From: Actinomycetota bacterium
GTDB taxonomy: Bacteria; Actinomycetota; Actinomycetes; Actinomycetales; Microbacteriaceae
Assembly (NCBI GenBank): GCA_016870695.1
Contig: VGAV01000022.1
Location: 1 to 14,057, forward strand
Reading direction: 5' to 3'
Length of the DNA stretch: 14,057 nucleotides
This document shows positions 6,083-13,938 of the stretch, piece by piece. The notes beneath the pieces are model-generated. The model searched no databases. It had not been told where the DNA came from and saw nothing but the letters and a program-made list of their open reading frames with translations. The number at the start of each line of letters is the position of its first letter. The first letter of the stretch is position 1. Position numbers and translations under genes: made by a program.

Positions 6083-6219
6083 GCATGGTGCAACGTCGCG
6101 GCCCCTCGCGGTTCTTCCCCGCCCGCGGCTCCCGCTCCCCGAATCCGACTCTCCCGCCCGACCGCCCCGACCGCCCCACCGCCCGCGGGCCGGACGCGAT
6201 ACGACGACCCGTCCACCGC

Positions 6220-6279
6220 GAAACACGACTGCTATCCGGTGGTCGTCGTGCGGAAACAGTCGAGGTCTCTACTGGGGGC
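6220..6279 (+). promoter_or_regulatory. Candidate nitD promoter with GAAAC boxes
   Basis: GAAACACGAC (6220-6229), TCCG (6235-6238), GAAAC (6253-6257) and CTGGG (6272-6276) occur in the same order and at the same distances as in the region before nitB. The two GAAAC boxes are 33 bp apart, three 11-bp steps, which recalls the spacing of GlnR boxes (gTnAC-n6-GAAAC), though the middle boxes match poorly. TCTACT at 6268-6273 is a possible -10 box that would place the transcript start at about the ATG (6280), i.e. a leaderless message; the only Shine-Dalgarno-like run (GGGGG, 6274-6278) is too close to the ATG. Confidence 0.45.
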
Positions 6280-7374
6280 ATGACCAACGAAGCCGTCCAC
6301 ACCGACATCCATCCGGATCGTGTCGCGACCCGGGTCAGTCTCGCTCTGCTGGGCGTCCGCAGCGACGCCCCGGTCCGCCGGTCCGGCGGGGCGGGTCCGA
6401 GCGACGACGGTCACTTCGTGATCGACGGCGACGGCGCTGCCATCCCCCTGAATCCGAACAGTCCCTACGTCGTGTCCGCGTCGGGGCGCCTCACCCGGGA
6501 CGGCGCGGACCTCGGGTTCGACGTCGCGCCGGTCGTGCGCCCGCGGTTCTACGACCTGCAGACGTCCGAGGGCGTCGCCTACGACAAGATCGCCAAGTTG
6601 CACGGCAAGAACGTCCTCGCCACGACGGTCGTGCAGACGTGCGTGCGGTACGACGAGAGCGAGCGCTGCCGCTTCTGCGCCATCGAAGCGTCCCTCGACG
6701 CGGGCACGACCATCGCCGTCAAGACGCCGGCCATGCTCGCGGAGGTCGCCGAGGCCGCGGTGCGTCTGGACGGCGTCACCCACATGGTGATGACCACCGG
6801 CACGTCGAACGGCTGGGACCGCGGCGCGAAGCACCTCGCCCGCTGCGTGCGTGCGGTCAAGGCGGCCGTGCCGCAGCTCGAGATCCAGGTGCAGTGCGAG
6901 CCGCCGGCGGACCTCCAGGCCATCACGGACCTGTACGAGGCGGGCGCCCGGTCCATCGGCATCCATGTCGAGTCCATGGACGACGAGGTGCGCCGGAGAT
7001 GGATGCCGGGCAAGTCGCGGGTCGGCCTGGACGAGTACCGCGCCGCCTGGCGCGAGGCGGTGCGGGTGTTCGGCTGGAACCAGGTGTCGACCTACCTCAT
7101 CGTCGGCATGGGCGAGGAGCCGGATGCCGCCGTCGAAGGCGCCCGTGAGCTCATCGAGATGGGCGTGTACCCGTTCGTCGTCCCGTTCCGCCCGCTGAAG
7201 GGCACTCTCGCCACCGACGTGGACCGGGTGCCGGCGCCCCACCGCGCCACGGTGGACCACATCACGACACGGGTCGCGGCGCTGCTGCAGGCGGCGGGCA
7301 TGCGGGGCGAGGACCAGCGCGCCGGGTGCGCCGCGTGCGGGGCGTGCAGCATCCTCAAGACGGCGGGCGCGTGA
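6280..7374 (+). CDS. nitD: MSMEG_0568-family radical SAM protein (NitD-like)
   Basis: This 364-residue protein belongs to the radical SAM group found only in Nit1C-type clusters; the symbol follows the pseudomonad nit genes. The expected iron-sulphur site is Cys121-X8-Cys130-X2-Cys133 (QTCVRYDESERCRFCAIE), not the standard CX3CX2C. Following parts fit a TIM-barrel radical SAM core: VTHMVMTTGTSNGWDRG (166-182) in the GGE-like position, EIQVQCEPP (201-209), GIHVESMDD (227-235), and YLIVGMGEEPD (272-282). The C-terminus has a second cysteine set, Cys350-X2-Cys353-X2-Cys356, which may bind another cluster. The reaction is unknown. ATG at 6280 was chosen because homologues begin shortly before this core. 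It overlaps the next gene by one base. Confidence 0.9.
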   Translation: MTNEAVHTDIHPDRVATRVSLALLGVRSDAPVRRSGGAGPSDDGHFVIDGDGAAIPLNPNSPYVVSASGRLTRDGADLGFDVAPVVRPRFYDLQTSEGVAYDKIAKLHGKNVLATTVVQTCVRYDESERCRFCAIEASLDAGTTIAVKTPAMLAEVAEAAVRLDGVTHMVMTTGTSNGWDRGAKHLARCVRAVKAAVPQLEIQVQCEPPADLQAITDLYEAGARSIGIHVESMDDEVRRRWMPGKSRVGLDEYRAAWREAVRVFGWNQVSTYLIVGMGEEPDAAVEGARELIEMGVYPFVVPFRPLKGTLATDVDRVPAPHRATVDHITTRVAALLQAAGMRGEDQRAGCAACGACSILKTAGA

Positions 7375-8765
7375 TGTTCGACCTGCCCGTCCTGACGGGG
7401 GCGCTCCCGCGGCAGGCGGCGGCGGCGTGGGAGATCCGCGTCGCGGACCCCGGCCAGGTCCGGGCGTACCGGGACCTCCGCCGCGACGTGTTCGTCGCCG
7501 AGCAGGGGCTGTTCCCGGGCTCGGACCGCGACGACGTCGACGACGATCCGCGGACGATCGTCCTCGTCGCGGTCACCGCGGAGGGCGAGGTCCTCGGCGG
7601 CGTCCGCCTCGCCCCCGCGACCCCGCGCGACATCGGCTGGTGGACCGGCGGGCGGCTCGTGGTCCGCCGCACGGCTCGGCACGCCGGCGGCATCGGCCCG
7701 GAGCTGGTCCGCGCCGCCTGCCGGGAGGCGCTGCGCCGCGGCGTCCTGCGCTTCGAGGCGACCGTGCAGATCCCGAACGAGTCGCTGTTCCGCCGCCTCG
7801 GATGGCTGCGGTGGGGAGAGGCATCCATCTCCGGAGTCCCCCACGTGCGCATGCGCTGGCCGATCGACCGGATCGCGGAGCTCGTCGCCGCGACGAAGCT
7901 CCCGCTCGGCGACGTCCTCGCCGGGCTGCGTGACGACCACCCCGACGGACTGGGCGGTGCCGGCTGGATCGGCGACGACGGCGCCCTCGTCGCCGGGACG
8001 GACGTGGTCGTGGCGACCGACGCGATCCTGCCCGCGATGATCGAGAAGGACCCCGAGTGGGCCGGGTGGTGCGGTGTGCTCGTCAACGTCAACGACATCT
8101 CCGCGATGGGGGCGCGGGCGGTGGGACTGATGGATGCCGTCGCGGCACCCACCCCGTCGGCGGTGCGTCGCATCGTCTCGGGACTGCGCAGCGCGGCCGT
8201 GGCCTGGGGCGTGCCCATCCTCGGCGGGCACACGCAGGTGCGCGCGTCGCCCTCGCTCGCGGTCACCGCCATCGGGCGGACCGTCTCCCCCGTCCCCGGC
8301 GGCGGAGGAAGGGCGGGACACCCGCTCGGCCTCACCGTCGACCTGCACGGGCGCTGGCGGCGCGGCTTCGAGGGGCGGCAGTGGGACTCGACCTCGTCCC
8401 GCACCGGCGAGGAGCTGCGGCACCTCGCGGGGCTCATCCCCGGCCACCGTCCCGCCGCTGCGAAGGACGTCAGCATGGCCGGCATCGTCGGCACCGCGGC
8501 GATGCTCGCCGAGGCGTCCGGCACCGGCGCGCGCATCGACGTGGCCGCCGTCCCCGCGCCCGACGGCGTGGCCTTCGGCGACTGGATGACGTGCTTCCCC
8601 GGCTTCGGGATGGTGACGGCCGGAGCGCCGCCGCTGGCCTCCCCGCTCGCCGCATCCGCGACGGTCGGCGAGTTGACCACCGCCCCGGGGGTGACCCTCC
8701 GCTGGCCGGACGGCGTCGAGACCCGGGCGGTCGACTCCGGCGCCACCGGTCTCGGTGCGGCGTAA
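7374..8765 (+). CDS. GNAT acetyltransferase-AIR synthase-like fusion (NitE-NitF)
   Basis: A 463-residue two-domain protein. Residues about 20-165 are a GNAT domain of the MSMEG_0567/Sll0786 type: VRAYRDLRRDVFVAEQGLF, GGVRLAPA, then GGRLVVRRTARHAGGIGPELVRAACREA (acetyl-CoA phosphate-binding region) and FEATVQIPNESLFRRLGW. Residues about 175-463 are an AIR synthase/PurM-like ATP-binding domain of the Sll0787 type, with LVNVNDISAMGARAVG (NDISAMGA at 240-247), the superfamily's metal and ATP motif, and PILGGHTQV at 281-289. In pseudomonads these are separate nitE and nitF genes. The ATG at 7374 overlaps the radical SAM stop as TGATG; GTG at 7371 is an alternative. The substrates of both domains are unknown. 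Confidence 0.9.
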   Translation: MFDLPVLTGALPRQAAAAWEIRVADPGQVRAYRDLRRDVFVAEQGLFPGSDRDDVDDDPRTIVLVAVTAEGEVLGGVRLAPATPRDIGWWTGGRLVVRRTARHAGGIGPELVRAACREALRRGVLRFEATVQIPNESLFRRLGWLRWGEASISGVPHVRMRWPIDRIAELVAATKLPLGDVLAGLRDDHPDGLGGAGWIGDDGALVAGTDVVVATDAILPAMIEKDPEWAGWCGVLVNVNDISAMGARAVGLMDAVAAPTPSAVRRIVSGLRSAAVAWGVPILGGHTQVRASPSLAVTAIGRTVSPVPGGGGRAGHPLGLTVDLHGRWRRGFEGRQWDSTSSRTGEELRHLAGLIPGHRPAAAKDVSMAGIVGTAAMLAEASGTGARIDVAAVPAPDGVAFGDWMTCFPGFGMVTAGAPPLASPLAASATVGELTTAPGVTLRWPDGVETRAVDSGATGLGAA

Positions 8766-8882: not shown

Positions 8883-9410
8883 ATGACCTCTGACCTCGAC
8901 GCGCAGATCGCGGAGAACATCGCCGCCTCGCTCAAGGAGATCCCCCACCCGTCGCTGCCGAAGGGCAGCAACATCTACGGCTCCACGAAGCTGTTCCCCG
9001 ACTTCCAGGCGGAGAACGGCGAGAGCTACTTCACCCTCATCCACGGCATCCCGCACGAGTCCTCGGTGAGCTTCGTCGCGATCCTCCAGGCGACCCGCGC
9101 GCTCCGGAAGGGCTTCGAGTCGGCGATCTACCTCTACGGCCCGGGCACCCTCGCGGCCGCCGCGAACCGCGGCTTCCCCACCACGGGCGACGCGGGCTTC
9201 CCCGGCGAGCTGAACATGAACAACTCGCTCGAGACGTTCATCAAGGAGGGCGGCACGGTCTACTGCTGCCGCTTCGGACTCGCGCTGCACGGCATCCGCG
9301 AGGAGGACATCATCGAGGGCGTCATCCCCGCGCACCCGCTCGACGTGCAGGACGCGGTCATCTACTACGCCCGCAAGGGCGCGATCATCAACTCCGTCTA
9401 CAACCTCTGA
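8883..9410 (+). CDS. nitB: MSMEG_0572/Sll0783-family protein (NitB-like)
   Basis: A 175-residue soluble protein of the Sll0783 family, found in Nit1C clusters. No enzyme motif is recognised. The alternating pattern YFTLIHGIPHESSVSFVAILQATRALRKGF, AIYLYGPGTL and a central Cys128-Cys129 pair (VYCCRFG) resembles DsrE/DsrF-like alpha-beta folds, but that is a guess from the pattern. In Synechocystis, loss of Sll0783 was reported to stop poly-hydroxybutyrate build-up under nitrogen starvation, and in pseudomonads the homologue belongs to the cyanide-growth cluster. It leads the second nit block, has its own likely promoter and a good ribosome binding site (AAGGA, 7 nt spacing), and is 8 bp from the nitrilase gene. 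Confidence 0.9.
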   Translation: MTSDLDAQIAENIAASLKEIPHPSLPKGSNIYGSTKLFPDFQAENGESYFTLIHGIPHESSVSFVAILQATRALRKGFESAIYLYGPGTLAAAANRGFPTTGDAGFPGELNMNNSLETFIKEGGTVYCCRFGLALHGIREEDIIEGVIPAHPLDVQDAVIYYARKGAIINSVYNL

Positions 9411-9418
9411 GGTCCGCC

Positions 9419-10321
9419 GTGTCGATCACCGTCGCCTCCGTCTCGGCCAACTTCACCCGGGACCTGGAGCAGAATTACGCGCTCATCGCCGATCTGGTGG
9501 CCGAGGCGCGGGCCGCGGGGGTGTCGTTCCTGGCCTTCCCGGAGGCCGCGATCGGCGGGTACCTGTCGTCCCTCGGCAACCACGGCGACACCGTCAAGAC
9601 GACGACCCGGTCGATGCCGCCGGCCATCCGCCTCGACGGCGCCGAGATCGCCCGGGTGCAGGAGATCGCCGGCGACATGATCCTTACGATCGGCTTCTGC
9701 GAGCTCGCCGACGACGGGGAGACGCGGTACAACGCCGCCGTGTGCCTCGACGGCGGCACCGTCTACGGCTCGTACCGCAAGGTGCACCAACCGCTGGGCG
9801 AGAACATGTCGTACTCGGCCGGCGACGCCTACGCGGCGTTCGACACCCCCGTCGGGCGGGTCGGGATGCAGATCTGCTACGACAAGGCGTTCCCCGAGGC
9901 CGCGCGCATGCTCGCCCTCGACGGCGCCGAGATCATCGTCAGCATGTCGGCCTGGCCGGCGGCGCGCACCGCGACCGCGGAGAACCTGCAGGACGATCGC
10001 TGGACCTACCGGTTCAACCAATTCGACATCGCGCGGGCTCTCGACAACCAGGTGTTCTGGATGGCATCCAATCAGTCGGGCACGTTCGGGTCGCTGCGCT
10101 ACGTCGGCAACGCGAAGGTCGTCGACCCGGGCGGCAACATCCTCGCCACGACACTCCTCGGCACGGGGCTCGCGATCGCCGAGATCGACATCGCGGAGAC
10201 GTTCCGGGCGATGCGCGGCGGCATGTTCCACCTGCGCGACCGGCGTCCGGACGTCTACGGCCCCGTGACGCGGACCGACGGCGCCGGGGTCGACGGGTGG
10301 CGGGAGCTCGCTCATGCCTGA
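9419..10321 (+). CDS. nitC: Nit6803-type nitrilase (NitC)
   Basis: This 300-residue carbon-nitrogen hydrolase converts nitriles to carboxylic acids and ammonia. The complete triad is present: Glu42 in FPEAAIGGYL, Lys121 in YRKVHQPLGE and Cys153 in MQICYDKAFPE; Glu127 is the usual second glutamate. Nit6803-family enzymes form oligomers or filaments and accept a range of nitriles in vitro; NitC is required for growth on cyanide in Pseudomonas fluorescens NCIMB 11764. The natural substrate here is not known. Start: GTG at 9419, with GAGG at 9409-9412 spaced 6 nt away and overlapping the nitB stop; there is no better start. Its stop overlaps the next gene by 8 bp. Confidence 0.94.
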   Translation: MSITVASVSANFTRDLEQNYALIADLVAEARAAGVSFLAFPEAAIGGYLSSLGNHGDTVKTTTRSMPPAIRLDGAEIARVQEIAGDMILTIGFCELADDGETRYNAAVCLDGGTVYGSYRKVHQPLGENMSYSAGDAYAAFDTPVGRVGMQICYDKAFPEAARMLALDGAEIIVSMSAWPAARTATAENLQDDRWTYRFNQFDIARALDNQVFWMASNQSGTFGSLRYVGNAKVVDPGGNILATTLLGTGLAIAEIDIAETFRAMRGGMFHLRDRRPDVYGPVTRTDGAGVDGWRELAHA

Positions 10322-10613
10322 AATGCGTTTCACCGTCGAGTGGCCCGACGGGGTGCGGACCTCGCACTACTCGCCGAGCCTCGTGGTCCATGACTTCCTC
10401 GTCACCGGCGAGCGCTATCCGGTCGCGGACTTCGTCTCGCGCGCGCGGGAGGCGCTCGACATCGCCGGCGAGCGGGTGCGCGCGGCCTACGGGTTCGCGT
10501 GCACCTCGGCCGCGGCCTCGCGGGCCGAGATCGCCCGAGCCGCGGACGGCCACGGGACGGGCGAGGTCCTCGTCCTCGCCATGGAGCCTCCGCTCCCGGC
10601 GGTGCCCGCGTGA
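10314..10613 (+). CDS. nitG: MSMEG_0570-family small protein (NitG-like)
   Basis: A 99-residue protein of the MSMEG_0570 'nitrogen starvation response' family, seen only with Nit1C genes. It begins MPEMRFTVEWPDGV, followed by a helix-rich middle (PVADFVSRAREALDIAGERVRAAYGFACTS) with one cysteine, Cys63, and a C-terminal strand VLVLAMEPP. No signal peptide, membrane segment or catalytic motif is seen, and its function is unknown; a partner or carrier for the neighbouring enzymes is conceivable. ATG at 10314 has GGGAG at 10302-10306 with 7 nt spacing and overlaps the nitrilase stop by 8 bp; its own stop overlaps the next start by 4 bp, so the three genes are tightly coupled. Confidence 0.85.
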   Translation: MPEMRFTVEWPDGVRTSHYSPSLVVHDFLVTGERYPVADFVSRAREALDIAGERVRAAYGFACTSAAASRAEIARAADGHGTGEVLVLAMEPPLPAVPA

Positions 10614-11863
10614 TCCCCGTCGAGATCGAGGCGGGCCGGCACTACTCGGCCGTCGTCGTCGGCGGCGGGCAGGCCGGGCTGGCGGTGAGCCGGCACCTCG
10701 TCGAGCGCGGGGTCGACCACGTGGTGCTGGAGCGGTCCTCCATCGCCCACGAGTGGCGGGACGGGCGGTGGGACAACTTCACCCTCGTGACACCGAACTG
10801 GCAGTGCCGTCTGCCGGGGTACCCGTACGCCGGGCCCGACCCCGACGGTTTCATGCGGCGCGACGAGGTGTACGCGTGGGTCCGCGGCTACGCCGACACC
10901 TTCGACGCCCCCGTGGCCGAGCAGGTGGGTGTGGAGCGGGTGACGCGGCGCGACGACGGCGCCTTCCTCGTGACCACGACCGCCGGGACCGTCTCGGCCG
11001 ACGCCGTCGTGTCCGCCACCGGCGGCTACCACGAGCCCCTCGTGCCCGCCTGGGCCGCCGACCTGCCGCCGTCGGTCCGACAGCTGCACTCGCACGAGTA
11101 CCGCAACGGTGGACAGCTGCCGGGCACGGTCCTCGTCGTGGGGACCGGCCAGTCCGGCACGCAGATCGCGGAGGACCTGCACCTGGAGGGACGCCGGGTG
11201 CACCTGGCCGTGGGCCGGGCCCCTCGCGTCGCCCGCTTCTACCGGGGCCGCGACTGCATGACGTGGCTGGCCGACATGGGGGTCTACGACATCCCCGTCG
11301 GGGCGCAGGCCGCCGCCAAGCGCGCGGCGACCAACCACTACGTCACCGGGCGCGACGGCGGGCGCGACATCGACCTGCGCGCGTTCGCCGCGCAGGGCAT
11401 GGCGCTGCACGGACGCGTCGTCGGGATCACCGGGGGCCGGCTGCACTTCGACGACGCGCTCGCCGCGAACCTCGACCACGCCGACGACGTGGCCGCCTCC
11501 ATCAAGCGCGACATCGACGCGTTCATCGCGCGTGAGGGCATCGACGCGCCGGCCGAGCCGCCCTACCGCCCGGTCTGGGCCCCTGCGCCCGGACCCACCT
11601 CGGTCGGCCTGGACGAGATCGACGCCGTCGTGTGGGCGATCGGGTTCCGGCCGGACTGGTCGTGGCTGGGAGACCTGGCGGTGCTCGACGCGCAGCGGCA
11701 TCCCGTGCACGACCGGGGTGTGACCGCCGAGCCCGGGTTCTTCTTCGTCGGGCTGCCGTGGCTGCACACGTGGGGGTCGGGCCGGTTCCACGCGATCGCC
11801 CGGGATGCCGCCCACGTGGCGGCGCAGGTCGACGCGGCCGCGTCGGCTCTCGCCGTGCGGTGA
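10610..11863 (+). CDS. nitH: MSMEG_0569-family flavin-dependent oxidoreductase (NitH-like)
   Basis: A 417-residue FMO-like flavoprotein with two dinucleotide-binding sites. The FAD site is VVVGGGQAGLAVSRHL (GxGxxG at 18-23) with the acidic end of strand 2 at LERSS, and the NAD(P)H site is VLVVGTGQSGTQIAEDL (GxGxxG at 178-183). Between them lies ATGGYHEP, and HSHEYRNGG just before the second site, as in flavin monooxygenases. The C-terminal VWAIGFRPDWSW and FFFVGLPWLHTWGSGRF are typical of this family. It may oxidise an amine or nitrile-forming intermediate, but no substrate is known. GTG at 10610 was chosen because it overlaps the nitG stop as GTGA and starts 15 residues before the Rossmann strand. 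The Shine-Dalgarno signal is weak. Confidence 0.9.
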   Translation: MIPVEIEAGRHYSAVVVGGGQAGLAVSRHLVERGVDHVVLERSSIAHEWRDGRWDNFTLVTPNWQCRLPGYPYAGPDPDGFMRRDEVYAWVRGYADTFDAPVAEQVGVERVTRRDDGAFLVTTTAGTVSADAVVSATGGYHEPLVPAWAADLPPSVRQLHSHEYRNGGQLPGTVLVVGTGQSGTQIAEDLHLEGRRVHLAVGRAPRVARFYRGRDCMTWLADMGVYDIPVGAQAAAKRAATNHYVTGRDGGRDIDLRAFAAQGMALHGRVVGITGGRLHFDDALAANLDHADDVAASIKRDIDAFIAREGIDAPAEPPYRPVWAPAPGPTSVGLDEIDAVVWAIGFRPDWSWLGDLAVLDAQRHPVHDRGVTAEPGFFFVGLPWLHTWGSGRFHAIARDAAHVAAQVDAAASALAVR

Positions 11864-11888: not shown

Positions 11889-12746
11889 ATGGGATCGGTG
11901 ACGATGGCCGCCGTCGCGGCCCACTTCGGGCGCGATGTCGAGCGTACGCTGGCCAAGCTTCCCGGGATCGTCGCGGACGCGCGGTCGCGAGGCGTCGACC
12001 TGCTCGTGCTGCCGGACGCGACGATCGGCGGCTACCTCCTCGACCTGCACCACCCCGTGGGAGACGGCGACAGCGTCCCCCACTCCGTGGAGATCGACGG
12101 ACCGGAGGTCGCCGCCATCGTCGCACTCGCCGGCGACATGACGGTGTGCTTCGGCATCGCCGAGCGGGCAGTGGAGGACGGCGGCGAGCGCCGGTACAAC
12201 ACGGCGGTGTGCGTCACCGGCTCGGGGGTCCTCGGCACCCACCGCAAGGTGCACCTGCCCCTGGGCGAGGGCGAGGTGTACGAGCCGGGGACGGCGTTCG
12301 AGGCCTTCGACACCCCCGTCGGTCGCCTGGGCATGCTCATCGACTTCGACAAGACCTTCCCAGAAGCGGCGCGGTCGCTCGCCCTGGACGGGGCGGAGAT
12401 CATCGCGTGCCTGAGCGCGTGGCCCGCCAGCGTCACCGACCGGTCCGACCGCATCCGCAACGACCGTCAGGCGCACCTGTTCGACCTGTACGACTGCGCG
12501 CGGGCCGCGGAGAACCAGGTCTACCTCGTCTCGTCCAACCAGACCGGCGTCCTCGGGGGGCTGCGCTTCCTCGGACAGGCCAAGGTCGTCGATCCCGCGG
12601 GCGAGATCGTCGCAAAGACGTGGGCGAAGGGCGGTCTGGCCGTCGCCGAGGCCGACGTCGCCGGCGACATCGCCCGTGCCCGCCGCTCGCTGAACCACCT
12701 CGCTCAGCGCGTCTCCCCCGCCTACCGCCGGGACGCGCCGGTCTGA
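11889..12746 (+). CDS. Nitrilase-fold paralogue lacking catalytic Cys and Glu (possible pseudo-enzyme)
   Basis: A 285-residue protein of the carbon-nitrogen hydrolase fold, clearly related to the intact nitrilase three genes upstream: it shares FDTPVGR, DK.FPEAAR and LALDGAEII, and later NQVYL.SSNQTG and AKVVDP. Lys120 in HRKVHLPLGE is kept and Glu127 is kept. The catalytic Glu position is Asp43 (LPDATIGGYL versus FPEAAIGGYL), and the nucleophilic Cys position is Asp152 (LIDFDKTFPE versus QICYDKAFPE). The reading frame is intact, so it is not a broken gene, but thiol-based nitrile hydrolysis is not expected. It may be a structural or regulatory partner of the active nitrilase, or have a different chemistry. 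ATG at 11889 follows a TAGCCT box by 6 nt. Confidence 0.85.
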   Translation: MGSVTMAAVAAHFGRDVERTLAKLPGIVADARSRGVDLLVLPDATIGGYLLDLHHPVGDGDSVPHSVEIDGPEVAAIVALAGDMTVCFGIAERAVEDGGERRYNTAVCVTGSGVLGTHRKVHLPLGEGEVYEPGTAFEAFDTPVGRLGMLIDFDKTFPEAARSLALDGAEIIACLSAWPASVTDRSDRIRNDRQAHLFDLYDCARAAENQVYLVSSNQTGVLGGLRFLGQAKVVDPAGEIVAKTWAKGGLAVAEADVAGDIARARRSLNHLAQRVSPAYRRDAPV

Positions 12747-12792: not shown

Positions 12793-13938
12793 TTGCGCAT
12801 CGCACTGCTGACCTACTCCACCAAGCCCCGCGGCGGCGTCGTGCACACGCTCGCCCTCGCGGAGGCGCTCGCCGCCCGGGGGAACGACGTCGAGGTGTGG
12901 ACGCTCGGGCGCGGCGAGGACACCGCCTTCTTCCGCCGGGTGCGGCCGGAGGTGAGTGTGCGGGTGGTTCCGTTCGCGGCGCGGGACGGCGAAGGGGTCG
13001 GCGAGCGCATCGAGCGGTCCATCGACGTCATGTCCGCCGCGCTCGACACCGACGCGGACGTGGTCCACGCCCAGGACTGCATCTCCGCCAACGCCGCCCT
13101 GCGCCGCGGCATCCCGGTCTTGCGCACCGTCCATCATCTCGACGCCTTCACCACGCCCCAGCTGGTCGCGTGCCACGACCGCGCCGTCCGGGAGCCGGTG
13201 GCGCTGCTGAGCGTGTCCGCGGCCGTGTCGGCGGAGGTCGAGGGGCTCTACGGCCTTCGTCCGCAGGTGATCCCCAACGGCGTAGACGCCTCGCGCTTCG
13301 CTGAGGCAGCGGGATCGGATGCCGCCCCCGCGCGCGACCGCTGGACGTCCGAGCTCGGCGACTACGTCCTCGCGCTCGGCGGCATCGAGCCGCGCAAGGG
13401 CTCGATCGACCTGCTGGAGGGGTTCGCCCGGGTCCGGGCGATCCATCCGGATCTGCGGCTCGTGTTCGGCGGAGGGGAGACGCTGTTCGACTACCGCGAC
13501 TACCGCGCGGCGTTCGACGCCCGCGCCGCCGAGCTGGGGATCGTCCCGACGGTCCTCGGCACCGTGGACGACGACGCCCTGCCCGCCCTCGTCGCAGCGG
13601 CACGGGTGCTCGGGTTCGTCTCCACGAAGGAGGGCTTCGGTCTGGCCGCCATGGAGGCCCTCGCCGCGGGGACGACGGTGGTGGCCCGCGATCTCCCCGT
13701 CATCCGGGAGGTGTTCGGCGATGCCGTCCTGTACGCCTCGACGCCCGAGGAGATCGCGTTCCGCATCGGCAGCGCGCTCACGGCATCCGGCGACGTGGAT
13801 CGCGACGCGGGCCGGCGCCTGGCCCGGGCGCATACGTGGGATGCCGCCGCGCGCGCGCACGAGGCGTTCTACCGCGACGTGATCGGGCAGTCCTCCTCCT
13901 CGGGCACCGCCGCGCACGCTTCCGCCCGGACGCGGTGA
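12793..13938 (+). CDS. MSMEG_0565-family GT4 glycosyltransferase
   Basis: A 381-residue GT-B glycosyltransferase of family GT4 type. The N-terminal acceptor domain starts MRIALLTYSTKPRGGVVHTLALAEALAARG, with the usual glycine loop, and VVHAQDCISA and VHHLDAF follow. The C-terminal nucleotide-sugar domain carries VIPNGVD, LGGIEPRKG (196-203) and the E-X7-E motif Glu280...Glu288 in KEGFGLAAMEALAAG. Homologues sit in actinobacterial Nit1C clusters, so it probably glycosylates a product of the pathway; donor and acceptor are unknown. The TTG at 12793 is supported by GGGAGG 6 nt upstream. It lies 46 bp after the pseudo-nitrilase, and its stop overlaps the next ATG by one base. Confidence 0.88.
   Translation: MRIALLTYSTKPRGGVVHTLALAEALAARGNDVEVWTLGRGEDTAFFRRVRPEVSVRVVPFAARDGEGVGERIERSIDVMSAALDTDADVVHAQDCISANAALRRGIPVLRTVHHLDAFTTPQLVACHDRAVREPVALLSVSAAVSAEVEGLYGLRPQVIPNGVDASRFAEAAGSDAAPARDRWTSELGDYVLALGGIEPRKGSIDLLEGFARVRAIHPDLRLVFGGGETLFDYRDYRAAFDARAAELGIVPTVLGTVDDDALPALVAAARVLGFVSTKEGFGLAAMEALAAGTTVVARDLPVIREVFGDAVLYASTPEEIAFRIGSALTASGDVDRDAGRRLARAHTWDAAARAHEAFYRDVIGQSSSSGTAAHASARTR

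Follow-up and report, generated by a model that had tools for sequence, protein, structure and literature searches.

What can the pocket of a nitrilase-fold protein bind or do when aspartate stands in place of the nucleophilic cysteine and an intact sister is encoded beside it? This testable question is raised by the 14,057-nucleotide stretch of actinobacterial DNA analysed here (the window), where a gene for such a protein, hereafter NitD, shares a cluster with the gene for an intact paralogue, hereafter NitC. We found that the NitD group is a real, conserved, once-evolved Asp-for-Cys branch of the carbon-nitrogen (CN) hydrolases. The NitD gene and its active-site codons are located as follows:

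11889..12746, + strand: NitD, Asp-substituted CN-hydrolase paralogue, 285 aa (ORF, PF00795 match, AlphaFold2 model)
12015..12017, + strand: codon D43 (GAC), at the position of the catalytic Glu; Asp, Gly, Tyr or Asn across the NitD family
12246..12248, + strand: codon K120 (AAG), catalytic Lys kept; present in every NitD counted
12267..12269, + strand: codon E127 (GAG), second active-site Glu kept; aligns with Glu132 of MtCPA
12342..12344, + strand: codon D152 (GAC), at the position of the nucleophile Cys; present in every NitD counted

The NitD ORF is uninterrupted and encodes a full CN hydrolase with D43-K120-E127-D152, matching PF00795 with 123.7 bits over residues 15–257 (gathering cut-off 23.2). 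The AlphaFold2 model has a pLDDT of 90.2 and a pTM of 0.91, with low values at residues 181–190 (57) and at the C-terminal end (56). Querying Foldseek with this model gave 827 matches, the best 50 of which were all CN hydrolases with TM scores (query) of 0.76–0.85; the match to 6ypa had an E value of 5.5e-24 and a TM score of 0.82. By model and Foldseek, NitD has the alpha-beta-beta-alpha nitrilase fold, and the intact, uninterrupted fold described in an earlier sequence-only reading is thereby borne out. The motifs given in that reading are also correct: PDATIGGYL replaces PEAAIGGYL and LIDFDKTFPE replaces QICYDKAFPE, and RKVHxPLGE is retained. NitD and NitC are 48% identical (137/284), and the NitC equivalents of D43, K120, E127 and D152 are E42 (GAG), K121 (AAG), E128 (GAG) and C153 (TGC). 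Instead of the Glu-Lys-Cys triad, NitD thus has Asp-Lys-Asp, in which Lys alone is retained. In domain score, predicted fold, Lys and second Glu it resembles MtCPA (5h8i) and the PH0642-type amidases (1j31, 6ypa), from which it differs in having Asp for Cys, Asp or another residue for Glu, and a changed loop 181–192. Searching the window genome (88% complete) with NitD matched NitD and NitC only; a PF00795 search of the same genome gave five CN hydrolases.

NitD is encoded among the following genes:

6085..7374, + strand: radical SAM protein (TIGR04043, MSMEG_0568 family; family match from 6337)
7326..8765, + strand: GNAT and AIR-synthase-like fusion (TIGR04045 and TIGR04050, MSMEG_0567 family)
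8883..9410, + strand: MSMEG_0572/Sll0783 family protein (TIGR04044)
9419..10321, + strand: NitC, amidase-like CN hydrolase with intact Glu-Lys-Cys, 300 aa
10314..10613, + strand: MSMEG_0570 family protein (TIGR04042); overlaps the last 8 nt of NitC
10499..11863, + strand: MSMEG_0569 family flavin oxidoreductase (TIGR04046)
12793..13938, + strand: MSMEG_0565 family glycosyltransferase (TIGR04047)

All of these families (TIGR04043, 04045/04050, 04044, 04042, 04046 and 04047) score over their cut-offs in the window. The six non-nitrilase genes of the Nit1C cluster are present, with those for the GNAT and AIR-synthase-like proteins fused; the two are separate ORFs in three lower-scoring clusters (L134–L136). 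The gpr-type gene set is likewise found, as six NCBIfam-named proteins including TIGR04047 together with two CN hydrolases. The TIGR04046 match begins at residue 49 of the flavin oxidoreductase ORF, whose true start probably lies later.

In its radical SAM, GNAT, AIR-synthase-like, flavoprotein, 0572-type and 0570-type genes the window resembles the Nit1C clusters of Proteobacteria and Cyanobacteria (PMC1199592). Podar 2005 linked Nit1C to some of the subfamily-1 nitrilases (PMC1199592), and in Pseudomonas the Nit1C NitC is required for growth on cyanide (PMC11049912). Unlike Nit1C, the window encodes no Nit6803-type nitrilase over the cut-off of that family (TIGR04048, 502.6 bits) and has two amidase-like paralogues instead, with NitC at 42.2 bits and NitD at 33.4 bits. 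It also differs in having a glycosyltransferase, known there as an insertion in Burkholderia and Rubrivivax (PMC1199592). A Nit6803-type protein over the cut-off was found in none of the 13 genomes checked. Since no CN hydrolase passes that cut-off in the window or in these 13 genomes, cyanide assimilation cannot be assumed. The nearest solved relatives of NitC by sequence are N-carbamoylputrescine amidohydrolase and PH0642-type proteins; its earlier label of intact nitrilase is not established, and amidase-like CN hydrolase would be the safer name. The defining Nit6803-type nitrilase of Nit1C seems to have been replaced by an amidase-like CN hydrolase in the window cluster.

The substitution at residue 152 is shared by every relative counted. 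Homologues above threshold numbered 4201, 3586 and 3711 in three protein searches, and the best 120 of each yielded 260 distinct proteins (window NitD counted, NitC, listed as P0002, set apart). D152, K120 and E127 are present in all 260 and D43 in 259, with Asn in P0016. Scanning a genome collection with a NitD alignment yielded 517 matches by pattern; confirmed relatives numbered 489, and the best 80 of these 489 loci, all bearing actinobacterial titles, were examined. K120, E127 and D152 occur in 80/80 and D43 in 79/80 (Tyr in L107); codon 152 reads GAC in 78 of these loci and GAT in 2. These protein and locus samples consist of nearest relatives rather than random draws, and they overlap each other and a third sample, an even draw of 296 genomes from the window's class. 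In this third sample 28 genomes bear NitD, with D152, K120 and E127 in 28/28 and residue 43 being Asp in 21 and Gly in 7; 12 of the 28 were also placed in a tree and the other 16 assigned by similarity and residues. In a second draw of 296 genomes, from the phylum, NitD was confined to genomes of the window's class, and relatives from other classes (L032–L035, L038) carry Glu and Cys.

Close homologues in the same position that keep Glu and Cys, proposed earlier as refuting evidence, were looked for, and none of the 80 NitD loci has E at 43 or C at 152. The earlier question whether Asp43 and Asp152 are conserved is answered yes for D152, invariant in the copies counted, but not for residue 43, which tolerates Gly, Tyr and Asn. 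Of the two substituted positions, only D152 is strictly conserved, and residue 43 is looser. An essential Asp43-Asp152 pair was rejected as a candidate, residue 43 being Gly in 7 of the 28 sampled genomes and Tyr or Asn elsewhere. Seven loci (L144, L145, L146, L147, L148, L151, L107) and P0016 have Gly, Tyr or Asn at residue 43 with D152 unchanged. A solitary NitD lies outside any Nit1C-like cluster (L132, 9342–10205, in genome G028); it has K120, E127 and D152, and its TDR motif after W178 is altered.

Trees were built with IQ-TREE. NitD was monophyletic among 38 rows (support 100/98), and again among 32 rows (97/85) including 11 AguB-like outgroup rows, all E-K-E-C. Twelve AguB-like loci had been fetched for the outgroup, and L166 was dropped because its stretch is cut; the longest frames of L157–L159, which hold the remaining CN hydrolases of that genome from which the window comes, were not matched to NitD by phmmer and were left out. 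Glu and Cys are found in the NitC rows (in L146 NitC is cut before residue 43, which is unread there), in the cluster-linked L139 and L142 from another class, in the non-cluster L140, L141 and L143, and in the outgroup. Together with the monophyly of NitD, this makes Glu43 and Cys152 the ancestral state, with Cys-to-Asp having happened once. The outgroup has a gap over about 186–196, and residues 194, 197, 207 and 228 were left unpolarised. Two NitD-less clusters (L131, L133) branch within NitD-bearing groups, so NitD losses occurred.

The nitD gene is under purifying selection. By the Nei-Gojobori method, 66 pairs drawn from 12 Microbacterium-type loci gave a median dN/dS of 0.146 for NitD and 0.134 for NitC; the radical SAM and 0572 proteins each have 0.102, the glycosyltransferase 0.231 and the flavoprotein 0.245. 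Like pseudoenzymes generally (PMC10211241, PMC5106787), NitD shows the consistent absence of a catalytic residue in a retained fold, and it does so under purifying selection. The earlier proposal of selection for a non-catalytic job stands insofar as the substitution is selectively kept in an intact fold (80/80 loci, dN/dS 0.146).

Conservation of the pocket was compared in 36 paired loci, thinned from 83 at 85% NitD identity. Fifteen pocket positions, mapped approximately from the MtCPA residues in PMC4812014 via alignments and without coordinates, have a mean entropy of 0.23 in NitD vs 0.95 elsewhere, and of 0.14 in NitC vs 0.97 elsewhere; random position sets were as low in 0/5000 draws for NitD and 0/5000 for NitC. 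The NitD pocket is slightly less conserved than that of NitC, with residues 43, 50 and 153 relaxed: variation falls at 43, 50, 153 and 184 in NitD and at 156, 181 and 184 in NitC. Differences fixed between NitD and NitC (at least 95%; 81 NitD and 75 NitC rows, all nearest relatives) are D43E, D152C, T156A, Q194W, L197R, A207L and L228V. Some of these differences fail further out, with Val156 in the solitary NitD of L132 and Q194 in the Glu/Cys relatives L139–L143. By alignment, NitD T156, K155, S181 and D184 correspond to MtCPA Trp162, Gln161, Glu187 and Asp190, of which Trp162 and Gln161 hold the catalytic water and Glu187 and Asp190 sit at the pocket mouth (PMC4812014). Outside the pocket, helix entropy is 0.40 in NitD vs 0.60 in NitC at 158–166 and 0.23 vs 0.64 at 193–209; at helix 72–81 it is 1.52 vs 0.93, and in the C-terminal part from 257, 1.30 vs 1.05. 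Helices 158–166 and 193–209 presumably form the A-surface dimer face.

As the best explanation we tentatively favour a NitD that would be a pseudo-amidase, binding a ligand without hydrolysing it and serving the pathway of NitC. The observations beneath it are the substitution, its conservation and single origin, purifying selection, pocket retention and co-occurrence with NitC. In the superfamily, the Cys thiolate forms a covalent intermediate, Glu acts as base and Lys lies in the oxyanion hole (PMC4812014). A CN hydrolase with Glu-Lys-Cys would have been duplicated once; the change of Cys152 to Asp and loss of the Glu43 base would then have abolished the superfamily's thiol chemistry, but the remaining pocket residues (K120, E127, H122, P124, D154, K155, W178) and the dimer-face helices would have been retained. 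Because NitD keeps the Lys, the second Glu and the pocket walls, ligand entry is plausible and thioester chemistry is not. NitD may then bind, and leave uncleaved, a small ligand from the Nit1C/gpr pathway that resembles an amide, a nitrile or a carboxylate; D152 would pair with K120 or this ligand, and NitD may act for the pathway of NitC as a regulatory or co-assembling partner, perhaps in a heteromer. We infer the inactivity, the ligand binding and the contact with NitC from the observations above. Counting against this reading are NitC clusters that lack NitD, the solitary NitD of L132, a locus without NitC (L096) and the rarity of NitC as an adjacent gene, as do the lack of robust rate covariation with NitC and the slightly lower conservation of the NitD pocket. 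Likewise, Q194 is not special to NitD, as it is present in the Glu/Cys relatives L139–L143.

A partnership of NitD with NitC is suggested by co-occurrence. NitC with its Glu-Lys-Glu-Cys accompanies NitD in 74 of the best 80 of 489 loci. Five of the other six lie on short or cut contigs, and the sixth, L096 (7.7-kb contig), has NitD and neither NitC nor the flavoprotein. In the class sample, 27 of the 28 NitD-bearing genomes hold the cluster, the exception being G028. A radical SAM protein over the cut-off was found in 44 class genomes, of which 39 have a NitC-type cluster, 27 with and 12 without NitD; in the other five the clusters score lower (L134–L138), and the stretches examined contain no NitC and no NitD. 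The residues of NitC were read for every one of the 12 NitD-less genomes and for 19 of the 27 NitD-bearing ones; in the remaining eight (G078, G115, G139, G146, G156, G276, G290, G295) NitC was assumed from a second match. The earlier picture of an active and a changed enzyme kept in one cluster therefore describes most NitD loci, but 12 of 39 clusters do without NitD, which means that NitD is not needed for NitC everywhere. That NitD is nearly always found with NitC, and the converse less so, suits an accessory partner or sensor.

The evolutionary rates of NitC and NitD at first seemed to covary strongly, with a partial r of 0.76 that ranks first of 21 pairs (71 loci). The pair still ranks first of 21 (0.52 by rank) in 42 thinned loci across both groups, where the residual Mantel value is 0.65 (0/2000 permutations). 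Within groups it is 0.33 (45 loci; 0/2000) and −0.04 (26 loci; 1344/2000). As the signal is weak or absent inside groups, one deep split carries most of the covariation, and coupled rates were dropped as proof of contact. Across this split (L039–L087 vs L088–L118) both proteins have diverged strongly; NitC and NitD share an identity of 0.47 on one side of it and 0.55 on the other, and the two groups also differ in gene order. No sign of gene conversion was seen, NitC-NitD identity being 0.500 within a locus vs 0.495 across loci.

Gene order raises a different possibility, namely that NitD has the MSMEG_0569-type flavoprotein (FMO0569) or another cluster protein, and not NitC, as its partner, in a structural role or by handing over a ligand. 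Among 75 loci with at least six cluster genes, FMO0569 lies directly 5′ of NitD in 67 and NitC in only 4, and the glycosyltransferase lies directly 3′ in 68. In the Microbacterium-type group (45 loci), NitD and FMO0569 have a partial correlation of 0.57 by rank, first of 21, and a linear one of 0.54, second of 21. Supporting such a link, ten of the 12 NitD-less cluster genomes also lack FMO0569 on the contigs read. The flavoprotein gap was read in five of these ten (L119, L120, L121, L123, L125). There, and also in L149, which bears NitD, a different FAD-type protein stands beside NitC, as judged by eye; for L120 and L149 the gap protein scores over the PF01494 cut-off and has no TIGR04046 among the matches listed. 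However, the residual correlation is 0.05 in the other group (26 loci), and either gene occurs without the other, NitD on contigs L149, L113 and L096 and FMO0569 in L131, L133, L139 and L142. We consider a partnership of this kind unlikely.

An invariant Asp in a conserved pocket suits catalysis by Asp equally well. In such an enzyme, the elbow Asp152 would attack carbon or serve as acid/base, with K120 and E127, in a reaction beyond amide or nitrile hydrolysis that would supply or remove an intermediate in the Nit1C/gpr pathway of actinobacteria. Dehalogenases and epoxide hydrolases arose from alpha/beta-hydrolases when the Ser at the elbow became Asp; if NitD uses Asp chemistry, the same exchange of nucleophile would have taken place in the CN hydrolase fold. 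D152, K120 and E127 are in every copy counted, and the pocket is almost as conserved as that of the active paralogue. The codon change is also suggestive: Cys (TGC) to Asp (GAC) takes two base changes, while one base change from TGC reaches Ser, Gly, Tyr, Phe, Arg and Trp. Asp is thus not the nearest route to inactivity, which argues that Asp at 152 may have been selected as such rather than Cys merely lost. On the other side, the old general-base residue 43 drifts among D, G, Y and N, and to our knowledge no CN hydrolase with Asp-based chemistry has been described. Both the Asp-based enzyme and its proposed pathway role appear quite improbable to us.

A comparably small chance is given to the idea that NitD does no more than cap or join oligomers of NitC and binds no ligand. 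The superfamily dimerises via one conserved face, and a partner chain can wall the pocket (PMC4700190, PMC4812014). In line with this, helices 158–166 and 193–209 are more conserved in NitD than in NitC. A mere cap, however, need not retain its own pocket, and NitC occurs without NitD in 12 of the 39 cluster-bearing genomes.

The window gene set is identical by family name to that of the Mycolicibacterium smegmatis MSMEG_0565–0572 (gpr) operon, in which, by position, MSMEG_0566 should be NitD and MSMEG_0571 should be NitC. This operon is GlnR-dependent and induced in nitrogen-free medium, and its deletion leads to peroxide sensitivity and a lower NADPH/NADP ratio (PMC6039565). The same work takes MSMEG_0566 for an amidase possibly feeding nitrogen assimilation, and the protein appears in nitrogen-limitation or starvation tables with values of 2.96 (PMC4617892) and 8.94 (PMC4222082), given here from excerpts lacking the column headings. 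The published name of aliphatic amidase and the annotation of most named NitDs as amidohydrolase or carbon-nitrogen hydrolase would fit a normal amidase or nitrilase able to withstand both substitutions. Against these names, the nucleophile Cys is missing from every copy counted, including all of the best 120 of 3586 proteins found with the G049 NitD (100% identical to a Mycolicibacterium rutilum protein), which have Asp152, and the base is variable. Moreover, Cys-to-Ser and Cys-to-Ala changes in relatives have been used to hold unreacted ligands (PMC4812014 and a PDB title). An ordinary hydrolase is accordingly very hard to credit, and the database name amidase for NitD is probably wrong. Least credible of all, a local mutation, a sequencing error or a decaying gene, which NitD losses in some lineages and nothing else would favour, is refuted by the conservation of D152 in all samples and the dN/dS of 0.146.

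NitD thus represents a widespread actinobacterial family, mostly annotated as hydrolase where named, that lacks the nucleophile in every copy read. In the open-licence literature we found neither a nitrilase-fold branch described as pseudoenzymes or as having an Asp nucleophile nor a study of actinobacterial Nit1C.

Finally, the end of NitC, with its TGA stop, and the beginning of the 0570 gene share 8 nt at window positions 10314–10321 (ATGCCTGA). This overlap recurs at the same length in 70/73 loci, and the NitC stop is TGA in 73/73. In PMC6039565 the TGA of the matching MSMEG_0571 is read as selenocysteine; the overlapping 0570 start would explain the conservation of this TGA more simply.
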